IMG/VR virus record: IMGVR_UViG_3300043434_000753
Coordinates: 1 to 23,622 of that record
DNA from: a virus
Strand: one strand, 5' to 3'
Length of the DNA: 23,622 nucleotides
A model generated the notes under the pieces. That model made no database searches. It was not told the DNA's origin and saw only the letters and a list, made by a program, of their open reading frames with translations. Both the position numbers and the translations under genes were made by a program. This document shows, piece by piece, positions 5,589-22,263 of this stretch. Numbering within the stretch: position 1 is the stretch's first letter; the number at the start of each line of letters is the position of its first letter.

Positions 5589-6003
5589 TTCCAAGGAACT
5601 CGATAAGCTTGCCAAAAACCTGTTTGGTAAATCAGAGGTCAAAAACCGTATCGGTTTGAATACGGCCAAGATGATCACAGGAGATATCGTTACGCTGTAT
5701 CAAGAGTTCCGTAAAGCTTCAGGAGCAGGAGCACTCTGCTTTAATCCGGCTAAACCAGATAAAAGCATCTACATGACGGTGCCCGATTTGAAAGTCGACA
5801 TGGCACTAGCTGAGGAAATGTGCGACAAAGAAACCTCTGCATTCTTAGCGAAAACAATTGAACTGGTGCAGAAAGTTTCCGAAAAAGACGACAAAGCTCT
5901 GGTGCTTCTTACGTCTTCGCATGGAATCAGTGCCCACGTGATCGATCTGGATGAAGCTAATTCACGCTTAGACGGAATAGCTGATGCCGCAAGTCGCGAC
6001 TGA
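5581..6003 (+). CDS. Hypothetical protein (140 aa)
   Basis: The ATG at 5581 overlaps the stop of the HTH-like gene (ATGGCTAA), which fixes the start; the longer open frame from 5335 reads an Arg-rich shadow of that gene. The product starts MANSKELDKLAKNLFGKSEV. It has a mixed alpha/beta middle (MITGDIVTLYQEFRKASGAG, then ALCFNPAKPDKSIYMTV) and an acidic helical region (VDMALAEEMCDKETSAFLAK). The end is LVLLTSSHGISAHVIDLDEA. No known motif is recognised. It overlaps the following methyltransferase-like gene by 20 bp, so the two are coupled and may act together. Confidence 0.65.
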   Translation: MANSKELDKLAKNLFGKSEVKNRIGLNTAKMITGDIVTLYQEFRKASGAGALCFNPAKPDKSIYMTVPDLKVDMALAEEMCDKETSAFLAKTIELVQKVSEKDDKALVLLTSSHGISAHVIDLDEANSRLDGIADAASRD

Positions 6004-6562
6004 TTTTGTATCGCCTCCGGAGATTGTTGGGGTAACCTCCGCTTTCTTCGGCGGCCGTATCGATTTAGACCCAGCTTCCAGCAAATTCGCCAACACGCTT
6101 ATCAACGCGGATCGCTACTTTACTGCAGACGATAACGGATTAAGACAAACCTGGAAAGCTAAGAACATCTACTTGTACCCTCCCAGGGATTCGCTCACCT
6201 ATGACGAGCAACCCCCGGATACCGGAGTATTCAGGCGGAAAAAAAGGTTCGTAAAATCAGCCCAGCGAGTGTGGCTGGAAGAATGTTATCGCCAGTATGT
6301 GAGGAACAACTTCGAAGAAGCAATTGTTTTCTTGACTTCAACTGAAGTTGCTCTGATAACCACGCAAAAAATTGGCTTAGATTTTCCGATCTGTGTTTTG
6401 CGGGAAAAACCCGCACTTCATTTAGATCAGCCGGATCTACCGAAGATCTCAAACACAAGATGCTACGGTTTTATCTTATATATGCCAGAATCAACTAATC
6501 CTGATAAAAGAATCAGGGATTTTTTTGAATTCTATAGTCCTCTGGGGCGCGTATATTGCTGA
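5984..6562 (+). CDS. Phage Dam-type N6-adenine methyltransferase relative, altered catalytic motif
   Basis: The N-terminal half follows the phage Dam-like methyltransferase family. It has SPPEIVGVTSAFFGG, then IDLDPAS (residues 26-32, SAM-pocket strand) and ADRYFTADDNGLRQTW (42-57). The next position should carry the catalytic (D/N)PP(Y/W/F) motif, as in NPPY; here it reads YPPR (65-68). The rest (EEAIVFLTSTEVALITTQKI, then a strand with GFILYMP) fits the family's C-terminal half, and 192 aa is a usual length. Loss of the Asn/Asp and the aromatic residue suggests an inactive or repurposed enzyme, perhaps a DNA-binding decoy; an unusual active variant is possible. The ATG at 5984 overlaps the upstream gene by 20 bp. 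The 3' end contains a terminator-like hairpin and overlaps the convergent gene at 6513-6827 by 50 bp. Confidence 0.7.
   Translation: MPQVATDFVSPPEIVGVTSAFFGGRIDLDPASSKFANTLINADRYFTADDNGLRQTWKAKNIYLYPPRDSLTYDEQPPDTGVFRRKKRFVKSAQRVWLEECYRQYVRNNFEEAIVFLTSTEVALITTQKIGLDFPICVLREKPALHLDQPDLPKISNTRCYGFILYMPESTNPDKRIRDFFEFYSPLGRVYC
6500..6526 (+). terminator. Rho-independent terminator inside the last rightward gene
   Basis: CCTGAT (6500-6505) pairs with ATCAGG (6512-6517) over an AAAAGA loop; a GA then leads into seven T (6520-6526). The stem can be lengthened by AT pairs with one bulged G. It ends the rightward island but lies about 35 nt before the stop of the methyltransferase-like gene, so transcripts ending here would lack the last codons. 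The stop codon of the convergent leftward gene is in the same hairpin. Confidence 0.5.
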
Positions 6563-9375: not shown

Positions 9376-9524
9376 GGGAGCCCTGAATCTAAGAATATTT
9401 TAAAGAATACTGCGCTTTACCGATCGCAACAGAAACCTTAAGAGTACGTAAACTCCTCCACACATCGCTACGCAGAGCAGAAAAGGCCCTATAGTTTCCT
9501 CTGTAATTCATCTTCTATATCGTC
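9376..9524. promoter_or_regulatory. Divergent intergenic region between the GDPNM-type gene and the HTH/Dps pair
   Basis: This 149-bp gap drives leftward and rightward transcription. AAGAATA occurs twice, at 9391-9397 and 9403-9409, exactly 12 bp apart, in an A/T-rich patch that could bind a regulator or hold the leftward promoter. CTATAGT at 9490-9496 resembles a -10 element for the rightward HTH gene, but no -35 of good quality precedes it. No strong Shine-Dalgarno is present before 9525. Confidence 0.4.
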
Positions 9525-9800: not shown

Positions 9801-10340
9801 ATGACGTTCTCCGGTTCTTTTAGTACCACGCCTGCGCCGCAAGAGGCTCTAGAGCAAGTGCTTGAAGCACCGGAATTGGAGGAAGAGGGACCCAAGGCAT
9901 CAGTCCAGGACTTGATTTCTGGACTGGTGTCTTTATCTTCTTATTTACACCAGCTTTATGTTCAGAGCCACCTTCTGCATCTGAACGTTGAAGGACCTCT
10001 GTTCCTTCCTATTCACGAATTTTTAAAAGAACAGTACGAGGCACACATTCAGCAGTTCGATCAAATTGCTGAGTTTGTCCGCACGATGGACTTCTTGATG
10101 CCGATGTGCGAGCGCGGTTTGCTCAGCGCTTACAAAGGATTCAAGCATGTCAAGTCTTACGAAACCCGCGAGGGCCTTACGATTTACTTAAAGAATCTGG
10201 AGGCTTGCGGAATGTCTTCAAAGGATCTTCAGAAGATCGCGAAGGAAGTCGACGCACCTGACATTGAGAACTACCTGGCGGAACTGGTCGGCGCCATGTT
10301 CAAAGCCTCGTGGTTCTTGAAGAGCACCCTGCGTCCTTAA
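9801..10340 (+). CDS. dps: Dps-like ferritin (DNA protection / iron oxidation), 179 aa
   Basis: Dps proteins form 12-subunit cages that oxidise Fe(II) with peroxide and shield DNA. After a 35-residue acidic leader, the four-helix bundle starts (SVQDLISGLVSLSSYLHQLY, then VQSHLLHLNVEG). The ferroxidase residues known from E. coli (His51, His63, Asp78, Glu82) align with His60, His72, Asp87 and Glu91 here, in LHLN, IHEF and FDQIAE. The usual Trp after the first His (AHWN) is Leu61, and the Asp near the second His (HEMLD) is Lys76. The last helix (DIENYLAELVGAMFKASWFL) matches the Dps C-terminal helix. The acidic leader replaces the basic tail that lets some Dps bind DNA. It ends on a TTAA that is shared tail-to-tail with the 185-aa gene. 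A cage role in oxidative stress is inferred. Confidence 0.85.
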   Translation: MTFSGSFSTTPAPQEALEQVLEAPELEEEGPKASVQDLISGLVSLSSYLHQLYVQSHLLHLNVEGPLFLPIHEFLKEQYEAHIQQFDQIAEFVRTMDFLMPMCERGLLSAYKGFKHVKSYETREGLTIYLKNLEACGMSSKDLQKIAKEVDAPDIENYLAELVGAMFKASWFLKSTLRP

Positions 10341-10894
10341 GTCAGGAGCCACGTGTCTGTCGCCCGCACGTAAAGACCGGCGGCGAAAACACCCGACGAT
10401 TGAATCTGGTAAACCAGAGTTCCTGATGGGTTTGACGCTGGGCTCGGTAGTCCACTCAAAACTACAGTTGAACTCTGGATTGCTCCAGACGCCAAAATAG
10501 CTCCAGACGCTAATGCAGCTGTACCGGCCTGGGTGGCGAACGTTGCGTTAGTGGCGGTCGTCGCCGTCGAAGCTGAGTCAGCAAAGCCTGCGCCGATTTT
10601 TTGCCAGGTTCCGCCGGTCCAAACTTTTAAATAGTAGTTTGAGGTTGAACTGTCGCTCCACAGCTCGCCGACAGAGTTACCCGCTAACCCAACTGGGCTT
10701 GAGTTTGGTGCAGTTGCGCCGTAGTGCGAAGGACCAATTTTCCTGATGGCTCCCGCTGAATCTTCGAAATACAGACCAGGGTCTGCTGCACCTACAGCGA
10801 TAGCCAATTCGCCGTTCTGAACAACACTGGTCTGAGGACGGTCGGAAGCCTGACCGGATCGCTTCAGAAGAAGGATGACTGGTGTTGAAGTCAT
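10337..10894 (-). CDS. Small tail-fibre/attachment protein (185 aa)
   Basis: The N-terminus (PVILLLKRSGQASDRPQTSV, then VQNGELAIAVGAADPGLYFE) fits the particle-binding start of phage tail fibres, often KRS......L..GELA.N.....L...D. A repeat unit GELWSDSSTSNYYLKVWTGG (about 76-95) is related to the LWFDT...W units of the 304-aa fibre at 1487-2401. The centre is an Ala/Thr/Ser run (ASTATTATNATFATQAGTAA), a likely flexible shaft, followed by ALASGAILASGA. The ATG overlaps the stop of the 510-aa gene by one base (TAATG). A fibre or spike-anchoring role is inferred. It is the last leftward gene before the Dps island, which it meets tail to tail. Confidence 0.7.
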   Translation of the reverse strand: MTSTPVILLLKRSGQASDRPQTSVVQNGELAIAVGAADPGLYFEDSAGAIRKIGPSHYGATAPNSSPVGLAGNSVGELWSDSSTSNYYLKVWTGGTWQKIGAGFADSASTATTATNATFATQAGTAALASGAILASGAIQSSTVVLSGLPSPASNPSGTLVYQIQSSGVFAAGLYVRATDTWLLT

Positions 10895-12426
10895 TAATAA
10901 ACCCCGCCGTTGATCAACGAAGGGAAACCCGCTGGTGGCACTATAACTCCATTTAGGTATTGGCCCCCATCAAAAATGTTTGTAGGTTGACTAACTAAGA
11001 CGCCGTTTTCATACCGCCCGCCGTCGTATGTGTTAACCACAAAGGATGCCGGGTCGAAGGGATTGAACTCGTCAATCGTAAACATTGCAAAGCTATTGCC
11101 TTGCAGTGTATTTGGACCAGATAAACCTCCGGCATTCAGCGTCTTCGTCATCATATTGTACATATCCGGGTACATCATGTGTGTCGGCATATCGTCTTTT
11201 GCCGGGCTGTATCGTTGCCACCAAACCAGATCTTTCTCGCGCTTCAGGAATGTGGTCTGGCGCTCTAACTCCCTCTCAAAGTATTCGCGGTAATACTCAT
11301 TAAGAGGTTCATCCGTGGGCTGAGGTAACCAGGGTCCAGTCGCAACGCCCTGGTCGTATGCTCGCTGCATATCCCACATCGATGCGTAGATGTGCTTACA
11401 CCATTTAGGTTGGTAGTAATAGAAGTTAGGGTCTGAATAAGTGGCTTCAGAAAAACTAGGAATGTTGTAAATCTGATTTATATAAATAAAACCAAAGGTT
11501 CGAGCAAAACCAGGGTTATCGGAAGACTCAACTAATCGCGGAGTACCGTCAACACCAGCGTCGTAGTAACCCGGATCAAAGTTCTGAGGGCGCGTACGCG
11601 GATACTTGCGGCGGATAGAAGCTTCGTAAAGGTTAAAGTTCTCCCGCGCAAGGAAATCTGCGCACGTACACTGAGAGCGCATCTCCGTGGTGAGATATTC
11701 ACCCACGGCTGGCGGACCTGTTGCAGGTATAGACAGAGTGTTTGCATCTACAACACTCCAGCTTGTTGTCTCTCCGTGAGACAAAAAAAGCGTGTCAAAG
11801 ATGGGGGCGTAAGAAGGATTTACCGGAACATTATTGATACCTACAGCAACAACGGTGTAGTTATTAAACCCGTATTCTTTATCAGTACCATCAGCTCTGA
11901 ATCGATTAGAAAGAACTTCGCCAGCGAAGAACGATATAGGAGCTCCGAACGTGGAGCTTAACTTAACCGCATACGTAGTGTCGTCGTAATCAACTACAGA
12001 AACAATAGAGTAACCAAAGTTAAGGAAGTTAAAAGAATCGCGGGGTCGAATGCCAACCATATGCATGCGCATATCCGTCCGCGTGGTCGGATACATGAAG
12101 CACATGCCCGGTAGGAATACACCGAGACCCGGTGTACCGGACACAAAGTATTTAAACGAATATGTAAGACCGCCGTAAGCCTGCTGAGAGTACATACTCA
12201 GCTCATAACCTCGGCGCCAGCGGACCCACAAAGAAGCGTAATCGTATTCGCTGGTTAAACTAAAGTCCTTTGTATTTAAAGCAGGACGAAAACGCCTCTT
12301 AAAAGGCAGCGGAGAATTTAACTCTTTTGTGTTATCAGAACCTTTAACAGTTTTAGGCAGCTCAATATTATTTGTCGGCTTGAATGCCCGAAAATTGAAA
12401 TCATCCGAGCCTCGTCGCCTAGACAC
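10894..12426 (-). CDS. Large virion protein with split SWIM-like Cys/His motif (510 aa)
   Basis: The start is GTG at 12426, 4 nt after the upstream stop. The first 60 residues are basic and polar, and the centre is aromatic-rich (YDYASLWVRWRRGYELSMYS). A CTC pair (Cys253, Cys255) and a later CKH (Cys343, His345; KWCKHIYASM) give C-x-C-x87-C-x-H. This matches the SWIM zinc finger pattern (C-x-C-x(6-25)-C-x-H) but with a much larger insert. Two copies of a short unit, YDGGRYENGVLVSQP (467-481) and FDGGQYLNGVIVPP (485-498), lie near the C-terminus and resemble one in the 248-aa protein. Size and position between capsid-associated and fibre genes suggest a tail or head-tail component; an enzyme function is not visible. 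Confidence 0.65.
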   Translation of the reverse strand: MSRRRGSDDFNFRAFKPTNNIELPKTVKGSDNTKELNSPLPFKRRFRPALNTKDFSLTSEYDYASLWVRWRRGYELSMYSQQAYGGLTYSFKYFVSGTPGLGVFLPGMCFMYPTTRTDMRMHMVGIRPRDSFNFLNFGYSIVSVVDYDDTTYAVKLSSTFGAPISFFAGEVLSNRFRADGTDKEYGFNNYTVVAVGINNVPVNPSYAPIFDTLFLSHGETTSWSVVDANTLSIPATGPPAVGEYLTTEMRSQCTCADFLARENFNLYEASIRRKYPRTRPQNFDPGYYDAGVDGTPRLVESSDNPGFARTFGFIYINQIYNIPSFSEATYSDPNFYYYQPKWCKHIYASMWDMQRAYDQGVATGPWLPQPTDEPLNEYYREYFERELERQTTFLKREKDLVWWQRYSPAKDDMPTHMMYPDMYNMMTKTLNAGGLSGPNTLQGNSFAMFTIDEFNPFDPASFVVNTYDGGRYENGVLVSQPTNIFDGGQYLNGVIVPPAGFPSLINGGVY

Positions 12427-17167: not shown

Positions 17168-18283
17168 TCAAGCGTTAAATGAGTAGGCGATGGTCGCGAA
17201 GTCAGCGTTCAGAAGTTCGAAACCTGCGTACAGGCTCCAAATCATCATGATAAAACGGCTGAAATCGTCGTTGTTGTTCAACAGCACCTGAGCATTGTTG
17301 CCGCCGATGCCGACGCCCACGCTCTGGGGACCGAAGAACATACCAATGGCGCTCTCGTAAGACTTAGACGTGCCGCCGATGGTGGCAGTCTGGCTCTGAG
17401 AAGGCATGTTGGTGGATTCGAAGAAGCGAACGCCTTCGAACACAAAACCCGTGGGCATGATCGGCTCGCCTGCCACAAAGGTGGCTTGACCGAAGCCCTG
17501 ACCCATGTAGATGGCAGCGTTAGGCTGCATCGAGGACATGAGGGGGTTGATCTGACCGTTGCCGGGGTAACGAGCAACTTCGCGGAAGTCGCTGTTTTGG
17601 CGCAGGTGCATCAGGAAGGTCGGATCGCAAACGCAGCGATAGAAACCGTCCTGGTAGGTGGGGGTGTTCCGCTTACGCAGGCTCTTCACCACGCGGAGCA
17701 GGTCATCCTTAACGTCGAACTTGGCTTGCTCGGCGTTGGCGTAGGTGAGGCTACCAACGGCAAGATCACCGGGGTAGTAGTAACCACCTTGGCTGTCAGA
17801 GGCTTGACCCTTGGAAACAGCTTTCAGGAGTTCGTTGATGAACACCCGATCGCGCCAACGACGATAGTCGTCGAGCAGAGTCAGAGAACCGATGGACTGG
17901 TGGAAAGCGGTGAGGTTACCGGTATCCAGCAGCAGACGCTGAGCGGTGATCAGGGTCTCGCGAGCAATCTTGAAGGTGCTCGGCTGAGTGGGATCACTCG
18001 GGTCAGCAGGACCAGTGTACTCGCGGAGGGTCACGAGCACTTTGTCCTTAACAATGTTGCGGCTGTTAGCCGTGCCGATGGTTTGCTCGGCAGTGCGCTC
18101 CCGGCTTTCTTTCGAACCAGGATTGCCCCAGAAGCGATACCGGTCTAACTGAACAGTCTGGCCGGGTTGCTTCGAGAAATCGTGCACAACCACGGGCTCA
18201 GCTGCCATCTCCACCACATACGCGGGGTGAGGACGGTATAATTCAGCGCCCAGCAGCTTCGGGAAGTCATTATCGACGAACAA
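17168..18283 (-). CDS. Major capsid protein, HK97-fold candidate (371 aa)
   Basis: The start is TTG at 18283 with GGAGG eight bases upstream, an excellent ribosome site for a TTG start. The product has the size, composition and layout of HK97-fold capsid proteins. It has a helical N-terminus (MFVDNDFPKLLGAELYRPHP), an E-loop-like region with NSRNIVKDKVLVTLREYTGP, and a P-domain helix with FINELLKAV. The A-domain strand YRCVCDPTFLMHLRQNSDFR and a conserved GMFFGPQSVGVGIGG element follow. A Gly/Asn-rich C-terminal region ends LLNADFATIAYSFNA. There is no other capsid candidate as good in the window. It lies between the scaffold-like and decoration-like genes, as in many tailed phages. The assignment is by composition and order, not by a database hit. 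Confidence 0.75.
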   Translation of the reverse strand: MFVDNDFPKLLGAELYRPHPAYVVEMAAEPVVVHDFSKQPGQTVQLDRYRFWGNPGSKESRERTAEQTIGTANSRNIVKDKVLVTLREYTGPADPSDPTQPSTFKIARETLITAQRLLLDTGNLTAFHQSIGSLTLLDDYRRWRDRVFINELLKAVSKGQASDSQGGYYYPGDLAVGSLTYANAEQAKFDVKDDLLRVVKSLRKRNTPTYQDGFYRCVCDPTFLMHLRQNSDFREVARYPGNGQINPLMSSMQPNAAIYMGQGFGQATFVAGEPIMPTGFVFEGVRFFESTNMPSQSQTATIGGTSKSYESAIGMFFGPQSVGVGIGGNNAQVLLNNNDDFSRFIMMIWSLYAGFELLNADFATIAYSFNA

Positions 18284-19616: not shown

Positions 19617-20534
19617 TCAGGCGTTATCCAGGAAAAGCAGCTTGCTACGCAGTGCCTCGGGGCTCATCTGGGACAGGTAGCGCCAGGCTTGCTCAGGATT
19701 CTGATCCATGGTCTGGTTGAAACCATTCCACTGGGACTCGGCGTCCACACCGCGAGCGCCGCCGGTAACGGCAGCAGGCACAGCGGGCATCTGATCGTAC
19801 TGAGGCTGGTACTGCTGGCTGTAACCGTAATCAGTTTCGTCGTCCACGGGGTAGACCTCCGTGAAGAAACGATTGGTGTAATCAGCCAGTTGATCAGGAT
19901 CAGTCAGAATGTGCTCCATGGCGCCAGCTCGCAGAGCGAGGGCTTCCATGTTTTCGTTCTGCTGGATCAGAGCGTCTTCCAGAGTAACGGCGTACTCATT
20001 AAGAATCGCCGGAGCTTCGATACCGAAGTGGTTAACTACGGCGCTTGTTTCCTCGCTTAGTTGTGCGGGTTGCGTTGCCGTAGAAGTCGGATAGGAAGTC
20101 TGGGTTGTAGACGCGCTGTTGTACGAGATCTGCTGATCCGTAGGCGCTTGGTACTGCCAGGGTTGGGCCTGTAAATTCTGACTGTACTGTTGAGTATCCT
20201 GCGGCACCATTTGGTACTGAGGATACTGTTGTGCCTGGCTGGGGGACGGGGAGATCCGTGAAACCACCCGGTCCAGGCTGGTCAGCGCTGCTTCCCACGG
20301 GTTGGACGGGGAGGAGGCTGACGGAGACTGGTTGTACTGGTTGTTGGTAGAAGGGGCCGTAACCGGTGTTGCCGGCGACTGCACTTGGGGCATAGCCACC
20401 GAAGGCACCCCCTGGGTATTGGCTACCCACTGCGGGTAGGCTGTTGAGCCCATATCCGCCGAGGGCGCTGCCTGAGGGGCCGCTACCGCCGGGGAGACCG
20501 GGCTCGGGATCGAAGCTGGGATCTGCTGGCTCAT
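19617..20534 (-). CDS. Scaffold-like protein overlapping the portal gene (305 aa)
   Basis: The ATG at 20534 lies inside the portal gene and is read in the +1 frame for 503 nt. The first ~160 residues are rich in Pro, Gln, Ser and Thr (MSQQIPASIPSPVSPAVAAP...; several QQYPQYQ-like units). The portion after the portal stop is structured: LSEETSAVVNHFGIEAPAIL, then helices with LEDALIQQNENMEALALR and LADYTNRFFTEVYPVDDETD, ending SPEALRSKLLFLDNA. Composition, helicity, size and position between portal and capsid match phage scaffold proteins. No protease triad was seen. Later in-frame Met codons (residue 28 and onwards) could be real starts, which would shorten the overlap. Identity as scaffold is an inference from order. 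Confidence 0.6.
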   Translation of the reverse strand: MSQQIPASIPSPVSPAVAAPQAAPSADMGSTAYPQWVANTQGVPSVAMPQVQSPATPVTAPSTNNQYNQSPSASSPSNPWEAALTSLDRVVSRISPSPSQAQQYPQYQMVPQDTQQYSQNLQAQPWQYQAPTDQQISYNSASTTQTSYPTSTATQPAQLSEETSAVVNHFGIEAPAILNEYAVTLEDALIQQNENMEALALRAGAMEHILTDPDQLADYTNRFFTEVYPVDDETDYGYSQQYQPQYDQMPAVPAAVTGGARGVDAESQWNGFNQTMDQNPEQAWRYLSQMSPEALRSKLLFLDNA

Positions 20535-22263
20535 AGCTGCCCGAGTAAGTCAGTTCTTGCGCAAGGTGATCGAACGTCCTGTATAACAGGCCGGTCAGGT
20601 TTAGCCGAGGGTCAGCCGCTAAGGGTTGGTTCGGCGCAAGCGGATGTGGCGTCTGCAACATCTGACTTAATAATACTAAAAATTGCTGGAATGCGCCTTG
20701 CGTTTGTTGAATCATGCGGAAAGGGAATCCCTTCAGCATCTCACTACGCTCTGCATCCGTCTTATCGGGGAACAGATACTTCAGAGCTTCAACGCTATCT
20801 ACACCAAGCTCCTGCAAGTTTCTGACAACGATCGATTTCTGGTTGATGTCGTACGCGGTGTCTTCGTAAACATCTCCTTGGAAACGATACGTAACATCAC
20901 GATCACCATCAGGCGGCAGACCGTATACGCCAGGAGGGACATTGTTGGCCTCTAAAGCCTCTCGAATAGAAGTTTCGACCTTGGCTTTAAACCTGCCGGA
21001 AGCGACTTGATATTTTTCGATTGCTTCGGCGGTTTCCTCTTTAGGAGGCTTAGGCTGTTTGAGACCGCTTACGGCAATAAAGCTTTCCCGGAAGATCTCC
21101 TCCTGGTGGAAGATAATCATTTCCAGCAAACGACAAAAACCGTATGTAAGAAAACTTTTATTTTTACGCAGAGCAGTCGCCTGAGCGCGACCCATTAGAC
21201 CTTTAATTTCTGTTGCAGTCGCACCAGCCGAAATCGAAATCTCATCGACACCGCCTAAAGCCGTACGAATTTCTTCACGAAGAAGAAGGGCGTATCGGTT
21301 CATATCCCCGTTTACGGGGTCGGGCGTCATATAGCCCACACGGTCATTCGGCTCGATGTTCGCGATGACGCGCGGAACTTTCAGACCGCCGAGAGTCGAA
21401 GCAGATCCGAATGGCTCTGAAACTCGGGTCGAGGGGGTGTCACGTCCCGCAAATCCGCTCTGACTACTAATAGTCGGACGGAAGGTACGACCTTCATCTG
21501 CAGCTTCGACCAGATCGCTACGTGGGCGAGAACTGATGAGCGTCGGATTGCCAAAAAACTCAATGTTTTTGGCGATGTTACGCATCATCTGATCATGAAG
21601 CACGATCTGCTCCATGAACGGCTCGAACTCACCCTCGCCTTCAGTGCCGCTGCTGTTGGGTTTGTTTAAAACCTCTACAGCTGGGATGAATCCGAGGGTA
21701 TTCGGGCGGCTGTTTTTAGGAGTTAGAACCGCTCCGGGCTCTAATTCAAAACTGAGCTCAGTGTTAGCCTCGAATTCGTCAATACGATCGTTAGTTATCG
21801 AGATTCGAACGTAACGTTCGTTCATCCCATAGCTGTCAGAAGGCAGCCCTAACGTTGTATTACGAACCTTATAGCTGTAAATAATTACAACTTCTTCTAT
21901 GTTGCCGTTAATGTCGTGATAAACGCGGTACTGATCTTTAGTGAAGAAATAAATCTGATACTTCAGCTTCGGATCAGGCCGAAAATAGAACAATCCACAG
22001 CCGTCGATCAGAAAATTCCTGATAATGGCAGGAAAACGGATGTCGAGCTTGTTTAAATCAATAAGATCTTGTAAAAACTTTGTTCGAGCTCGGTAAGTAT
22101 CCTGTTCGCAATAAAAAAACAGACCCTTCTTAATCATCAGAAGGGTCATTTGCTGAAGATGGCCCAAAACGACCATCGTGGCAGCCTGACGCGAGCGATC
22201 CTGCGTACGAGATGCTTCGAGAATCTCGATAAACCGTTGTCGGACGCCGAGTGTATCTGCCAT
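20032..22263 (-). CDS. Portal-like protein with long Gly/Pro-rich tail (743 aa)
   Basis: Portal proteins form the ring through which DNA is packaged. The sequence has the alpha/beta layout of the family: an N-terminal helical region (RQAATMVVLGHLQQMTLLMI), a wing with strands such as YFFTKDQYRVYHDINGNIEE, and a helical stem near SISAGATATEIKGLMGRAQA. A clip/crown region follows (VYRFQGDVYEDTAYDINQ-like strands). Residues 577-743 are Gly/Pro/Ser/Gln-rich, unlike the rest, and form the part that overlaps the 305-aa gene. The ATG at 22263 is clear. The gene lies between an Ala-rich protein and the scaffold-like gene, the usual portal-scaffold-capsid order. Confidence 0.75.
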   Translation of the reverse strand: MADTLGVRQRFIEILEASRTQDRSRQAATMVVLGHLQQMTLLMIKKGLFFYCEQDTYRARTKFLQDLIDLNKLDIRFPAIIRNFLIDGCGLFYFRPDPKLKYQIYFFTKDQYRVYHDINGNIEEVVIIYSYKVRNTTLGLPSDSYGMNERYVRISITNDRIDEFEANTELSFELEPGAVLTPKNSRPNTLGFIPAVEVLNKPNSSGTEGEGEFEPFMEQIVLHDQMMRNIAKNIEFFGNPTLISSRPRSDLVEAADEGRTFRPTISSQSGFAGRDTPSTRVSEPFGSASTLGGLKVPRVIANIEPNDRVGYMTPDPVNGDMNRYALLLREEIRTALGGVDEISISAGATATEIKGLMGRAQATALRKNKSFLTYGFCRLLEMIIFHQEEIFRESFIAVSGLKQPKPPKEETAEAIEKYQVASGRFKAKVETSIREALEANNVPPGVYGLPPDGDRDVTYRFQGDVYEDTAYDINQKSIVVRNLQELGVDSVEALKYLFPDKTDAERSEMLKGFPFRMIQQTQGAFQQFLVLLSQMLQTPHPLAPNQPLAADPRLNLTGLLYRTFDHLAQELTYSGSYEPADPSFDPEPGLPGGSGPSGSALGGYGLNSLPAVGSQYPGGAFGGYAPSAVAGNTGYGPFYQQPVQPVSVSLLPVQPVGSSADQPGPGGFTDLPVPQPGTTVSSVPNGAAGYSTVQSEFTGPTLAVPSAYGSADLVQQRVYNPDFLSDFYGNATRTTKRGNKRRS

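Follow-up and report, generated by a model that had tools for sequence, protein, structure and literature searches.

A phage Dps-family mini-ferritin with a lost site-B acid and a conserved in-frame mRNA hairpin

Does a phage ORF resembling Dps encode a working iron-oxidizing cage, and is it an unusual acquisition or an established gene of its lineage? We examined these questions for a window of 23,622 nucleotides, comprising an entire 23.6-kb IMG/VR record. One of its ORFs had previously been interpreted without database searches (the sequence-only reading) as a phage-borne Dps-like ferritin with intact ferroxidase residues. The features of the locus are listed in Table 1.

Table 1. Features of the dps locus in the window
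Feature	Coordinates	Strand	Basis or context
dps, 179-aa Dps-family mini-ferritin	9801-10340	+	ORF (ATG to TAA), profile and structure comparisons
Acidic N-terminal tail of about 34 codons, predicted to be disordered	9801-9902	+	Sequence, pLDDT
17-bp hairpin within the dps ORF, on the sense mRNA	9894-9933	+	Consensus scan, folding, covariation
88-aa HTH protein, putatively an Xis/AlpA-like winged helix	9525-9791	+	Directly upstream of dps
Intergenic leader of the HTH-dps pair	9376-9524	+	Probable promoter region
Pair of convergent genes next to dps (10337-10894; 10894-12426)	10337-12426	-	Flank dps in relatives

The dps product matched the Pfam Ferritin model PF00210, which takes in ferritins as well as Dps (E 3.4e-10, 40.4 bits; curated cut-off 24.5), PHROG 3636 (E 1.9e-27), and many solved Dps proteins in a sequence search. 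These two E values, together with at least 310 IMG/VR stretches encoding this Dps, exclude a chance match. An AlphaFold (AF2) monomer model built from 49 family members (mean pLDDT 81, pTM 0.73) contained helices at residues 35-62, 68-95, 104-110, 122-149 and 153-177, forming a four-helix bundle with a short BC helix (104-110) and without a fifth C-terminal helix, which is the Dps arrangement. The best Foldseek matches of the model were all Dps, and VIA-align superposed it on Bacillus subtilis MrgA (2chp; Z 21.3, 1.6 A over 144) and Thermosynechococcus Dps (2c41; Z 21.2). A non-Dps fold was ruled out by the AF2 model, Foldseek and VIA-align. The product is a genuine Dps-family protein, and the sequence-only reading was upheld on fold and family: the structure prediction and homology search that it proposed returned a four-helix Dps bundle and Dps/ferritin family matches, and not a non-ferritin fold.

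The ferroxidase residues were assigned by a phmmer alignment of residues 49-93 with residues 20-64 of the Listeria innocua Dps chain (1qgh). His60, His72, Lys76, Asp87 and Glu91 were equivalent to Listeria His31, His43, Asp47, Asp58 and Glu62, respectively. The alignment is gap-free, which rules out a misaligned Lys76. The protein retains the site A ligands His60, Asp87 and Glu91 and the site B ligand His72, while Lys76 stands where the site-B carboxylate is expected and Leu61 where Trp is expected. The four ligands were invariant in 73/73 distinct phage proteins. Residue 61 was Leu, Phe or Ile and never Trp, and residue 76 was Lys in 64 proteins, Gly in four, Asn in two, Gln in two and Arg in one, with no Asp or Glu; residue 77 was likewise Lys in 22/73. 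A set of proteins reached via the upstream HTH gene, partly overlapping the 73, gave the same four ligands in 61/61 and never an acid at residue 76.

Cyanobacterial Dps sequences for comparison were the top matches in 386 genomes, supplemented with Nostoc-type loci that were fetched with the solved Nostoc Dps4 sequence as the query. Among these 42 sequences, the position equivalent to residue 76 was Glu or Asp in 34, and His82 (71/73) and Cys103 (73/73) were specific to the phage proteins by comparison. The phage family is a Dps variant in which the site-B acid has been lost, usually to Lys. The four ligands named in the sequence-only reading are thus an exact match to those of Listeria, and its Trp-to-Leu and Asp-to-Lys calls extend to the whole family; its description of the ferroxidase residues as intact is correct for four of the five canonical ligands, but the site-B carboxylate is gone throughout. 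By equivalence with the residues that make up the inter-subunit ferroxidase centre of 1qgh, the ligands would lie at the dimer interface, as had been expected. One cyanobacterial Dps (L237) has the motif HLNV, in which Leu takes the place of Trp, and carries Met instead of the site-B acid; both losses therefore occur in cells too.

Comparison with the known types of Dps centre placed the phage family in neither of the two subclasses considered. It shares with canonical Dps (1qgh, 2chp and Thermosynechococcus elongatus 2c41) the BC-helix fold and the four ligand equivalents, but identity is about 20%, Trp32 and Asp47 are replaced by Leu61 and Lys76, and His82 and Cys103 are phage invariants; without Asp or Glu at the residue 47 position (E. 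coli 67), it is not a member of the canonical-centre subclass. The His-type centre, known from Nostoc punctiforme Dps4 and T. elongatus DpsA, is defined by His replacing Asp at position 78 (PMC6675082), and the phage family, with Asp87 at this position in 73/73, is not a member of it either. No equivalent of His164 of the His-type proteins was evident near Trp171 of the phage protein. The phage and His-type proteins are nevertheless alike in that neither has a functional residue-67 acid or the Trp, for which the His-type proteins have Phe, and Dps4 is still active: its Asn67 binds no metal, yet Fe(II) is oxidized with O2 (PMC6675082). In Listeria Dps, a single iron was observed per centre, and the di-iron site was proposed to be transient (PMC7762939). 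We infer from the retained ligands that the phage centre is a site-A-centred ferroxidase, and Dps4 is a precedent for activity in the absence of the residue-67 acid.

The N-terminal tail of about 34 residues contains seven Glu and one Lys (net charge -6), and its first 30-34 residues or so are predicted to be disordered (pLDDT about 42 in the AF2 model). The protein therefore lacks the basic N-terminal tail of E. coli-type DNA binding. The acidic leader noted earlier holds in the HTH-bearing relatives, where the complete tails listed have charges of -2 to -8, but not in the S-EIV1-type relatives, where the charge flips to +1 to +3 (except in the divergent L040, whose tail is acidic). A tail of this composition speaks against DNA coating and would remove the usual DNA-binding route.

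To what lineage does the gene belong? The capsid and portal proteins of the window are 68% and 42% identical, respectively, to their counterparts in Synechococcus phage S-EIV1, and from this relationship only, the host would be a photosynthetic, cyanobacterial cell. S-EIV1 (KJ410740) encodes a Dps (AHV82153.1, annotated 'DNA-binding ferritin-like protein') with 54% identity to ours over the core and a common ligand set. Unlike the window, it has a net-positive N-tail and Gly at residue 76, lacks the HTH partner and the mRNA hairpin, and carries a sulfate adenylyltransferase gene directly downstream of dps. The two genes overlap in S-EIV1 (L042, 19890-21910), and of the other loci fetched just two have a sulfate adenylyltransferase gene, L035 directly downstream of dps and L110 about 2 kb downstream.

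The dps gene was found at the same place in all 23 contigs that contained the 510-aa neighbour and enough sequence, a count outside which fall four contigs ending too early and an ambiguous one (L267). In every relative whose sequence extends far enough, dps is flanked by the two minus-strand neighbour genes; dps lies on the strand opposite to the structural genes, and the late genes converge on it. This fixed place in all 23 informative contigs indicates a syntenic gene of the lineage rather than occasional cargo. In a phylogenetic tree, a branch with full support separated all phage Dps from cyanobacterial Dps, and the HTH-minus S-EIV1-type sequences grouped together (support 100/98) inside the HTH-bearing phages. 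A profile of the phage Dps gave a best E of 1.9e-14 against 386 cyanobacterial genomes, and a scan of genome contigs with phage patterns found no close cellular relatives; the phage family is therefore far from host Dps.

The HTH gene is immediately upstream of dps in 105/122 fetched dps loci (duplicate contigs included), the remainder being the S-EIV1-type clade and contig ends; conversely, 80/80 HTH loci carry dps on the same strand. The 88-aa protein is extremely conserved among relatives. It scored below the cut-offs of TIGR01764 (24.5 bits; cut-off 28.8) and PF12728 (23.9; cut-off 27), and its best Foldseek match was a weak one to RdfS (8dgl, E 0.037, above 0.01). With weak profile and fold similarity to Xis/AlpA winged helices, including RdfS and Pukovnik Xis (4j2n), it looks like an excisionase/AlpA-like winged helix, which we treat only as a lead; no integrase was identified in the window. 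As to the earlier description of dps as having its own HTH regulator, the pairing is conserved, while regulation itself is a further claim about a protein that looks excisionase/AlpA-like. Across the family of this protein, Cys19 of the HTH is invariant and a second Cys usually lies near the C-terminus; these cysteines could be redox- or metal-related. The leader is a probable promoter region: AAACCTTAAGA-like and TANNNT-like stretches are conserved by eye across relatives, and a consensus scan of it found no sigma-70 consensus site, including a consensus -35.

An mRNA hairpin was found inside dps, where a consensus scan flagged it as terminator-like. Over 69 nt, its folding energy is -29 kcal/mol, with a z of -5.0 relative to dinucleotide shuffles. 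In 58 distinct sequences of the HTH clade, codons 29-51 gave a mean z of -4.0 against synonymous codon shuffles, with 90% below -2, while z was near zero almost everywhere in the rest of the gene. At the same site, mean z was -0.3 in 14 HTH-minus sequences (synonymous shuffles) and -0.66 in 40 cyanobacterial dps genes. The signal was repeated in 19 further sequences reached via the HTH gene and outside the discovery set (mean z -3.5, 89% below -2). Related sequences are not independent of each other, which applies to all of these statistics.

Covariation was tested in 28 sequences sharing the pairing of the window, with shuffled and slid-register controls. Cells altered on both sides yet still pairing numbered 40, against 18.7 +/- 3.7 in shuffled alignments (0/500), and all slid registers scored below the true register on both the compensatory-change count and the covariation score. 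On 28 sequences, RNAalifold predicted no single consensus structure for the hairpin, as the register of the pairing differs from subclade to subclade, and it gave only a weak one in the KEA subclade; what is kept is thus the shape of the hairpin rather than its sequence. No Rfam covariance model matched at gathering score anywhere in the window. A few HTH-bearing sequences (L096, L100, L102 and L083) lack the hairpin. The S-EIV1-type clade differs threefold, being without the HTH gene, with a net-positive tail (except L040) and without the hairpin; this linkage is suggestive only, because it represents one evolutionary event. On this sequence evidence, codons ~31-47 appear to form a conserved sense-strand mRNA element in HTH-bearing phages, adding a putative post-transcriptional element. 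Strong in-frame folding was also seen in the portal gene (20032-22263, minus strand) at about nt 81 (z -4.9) and in the capsid gene (17168-18283, minus strand) at about nt 279 (z -4.4), both against synonymous shuffles.

Two other accounts of the hairpin were weighed. It could be an intrinsic terminator or attenuator that fixes the proportion of HTH protein to Dps, or it could terminate an opposing late transcript, as suggested by the consensus scan and by the late genes converging on dps. We consider this quite unlikely, since T residues show no excess after the stem (3.21 in 8 nt against a synonymous expectation of 3.16 in the 58 sequences); at least five T in these 8 nt occur in 11/58, and the copy in the window does satisfy the loose consensus used for the scan. 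The sense strand also folds better than the antisense in 51/58 sequences, a bias that points to an mRNA element rather than to a DNA palindrome or antisense terminator. That the hairpin is a functionless by-product of coding is improbable: other genes of the window do hold single windows with z below -4, so that a z from one genome is not decisive, but the signal recurs at one place across the HTH clade and again in the further sequences, is near absent from the HTH-minus clade and cyanobacterial dps, and is accompanied by compensatory changes exceeding both controls.

For the protein, the main alternative is that fast ferroxidase activity has been lost, with Lys76 filling site B and leaving a slow iron/zinc binder or a structural or nucleoid-associated cage. 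A Lys76 salt bridge to a carboxylate could weaken or abolish metal binding, the acid and the Trp are always absent from the phage proteins while most cyanobacterial Dps keep the acid, and the phage-only His82 and Cys103 suggest another selected property. We nevertheless regard this loss as unlikely, because invariance of the other four ligands over strong divergence would be hard to expect without metal use, and because Dps4 remains active although its residue 67 is not an acid. A role in the virion or in packaging, as a capsid- or DNA-associated component rather than a metabolic enzyme, would fit the fixed place of the HTH-dps pair inside the structural-gene region and the Dps domains of BFVD proteins named prohead protease. 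It has little probability in our view, given the strand of dps opposite to the structural genes, the distance of S-EIV1 dps from the portal and capsid genes, and the acidic tail of the HTH-bearing clade. BFVD holds many phage Dps folds, and the prohead protease proteins, from uncultured Caudovirales phages (A0A6J7WPK9, A0A6J7XDU5 and A0A6J7WIS1), hint that some phage Dps are capsid-linked.

Our preferred reading, with a probability of about 0.68, is that dps encodes a Dps-type mini-ferritin cage that oxidizes Fe(II) at site A and lowers iron and peroxide. Extrapolating from the monomer model, twelve subunits would assemble into the cage, and Fe(II) would bind at the dimer interface to site A, formed by His60 of one subunit and Asp87 and Glu91 of its partner, while His72 and water may form a weak or transient site B. 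The iron would be oxidized, probably with H2O2, and then stored inside the cage. Free iron and peroxide would thereby be lowered in the infected photosynthetic cell, protecting phage DNA and the enzymes of the lytic cycle. Expression would probably be set by the upstream promoter and the HTH protein, with the hairpin as a putative post-transcriptional addition. In a bolder version, which is doubtful though conceivable, an undescribed RNA element within the ORF, inherited together with the HTH gene and the acidic tail, controls the output of a Lys-substituted, site-A-only ferroxidase. This RNA element would possibly respond to iron or redox state.

The description of dps as an unusual auxiliary gene found no support in these comparisons, given its synteny, the annotated homologue in cyanophage S-EIV1, and published phage Dps. 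The latter are found in Lactobacillus plantarum phages (PMC6669764), Gratiaviridae gut phages (PMC8008677) and the Proteus phage Privateer, where Dps is likewise a tailed-phage gene, proposed to lower iron/peroxide stress in the host, but the sequences are distant (about 26% identity for Privateer), with other hosts and gene neighbourhoods. Our literature search found no paper on the function of a cyanophage Dps. While viral Dps genes are already known, the distinctive features here are the lost site-B acid and the conserved in-frame hairpin. Cyanobacteria are iron-rich, peroxide-generating hosts, and the fixed place of dps across a broad cyanophage-related lineage suggests that control of iron or peroxide is part of the infection programme and not an occasional extra. 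The family offers a natural test of the need for the site-B acid in Dps chemistry, and the hairpin is a concrete RNA element in a phage ferritin mRNA.

Elsewhere in the window, the plus-strand ORF at 5984-6562 encodes a relative of Dam-like methyltransferases, scoring under the Pfam cut-off, and the minus-strand ORF at 2472-2828 encodes a small protein that matches sigma-70 region 4/HTH.
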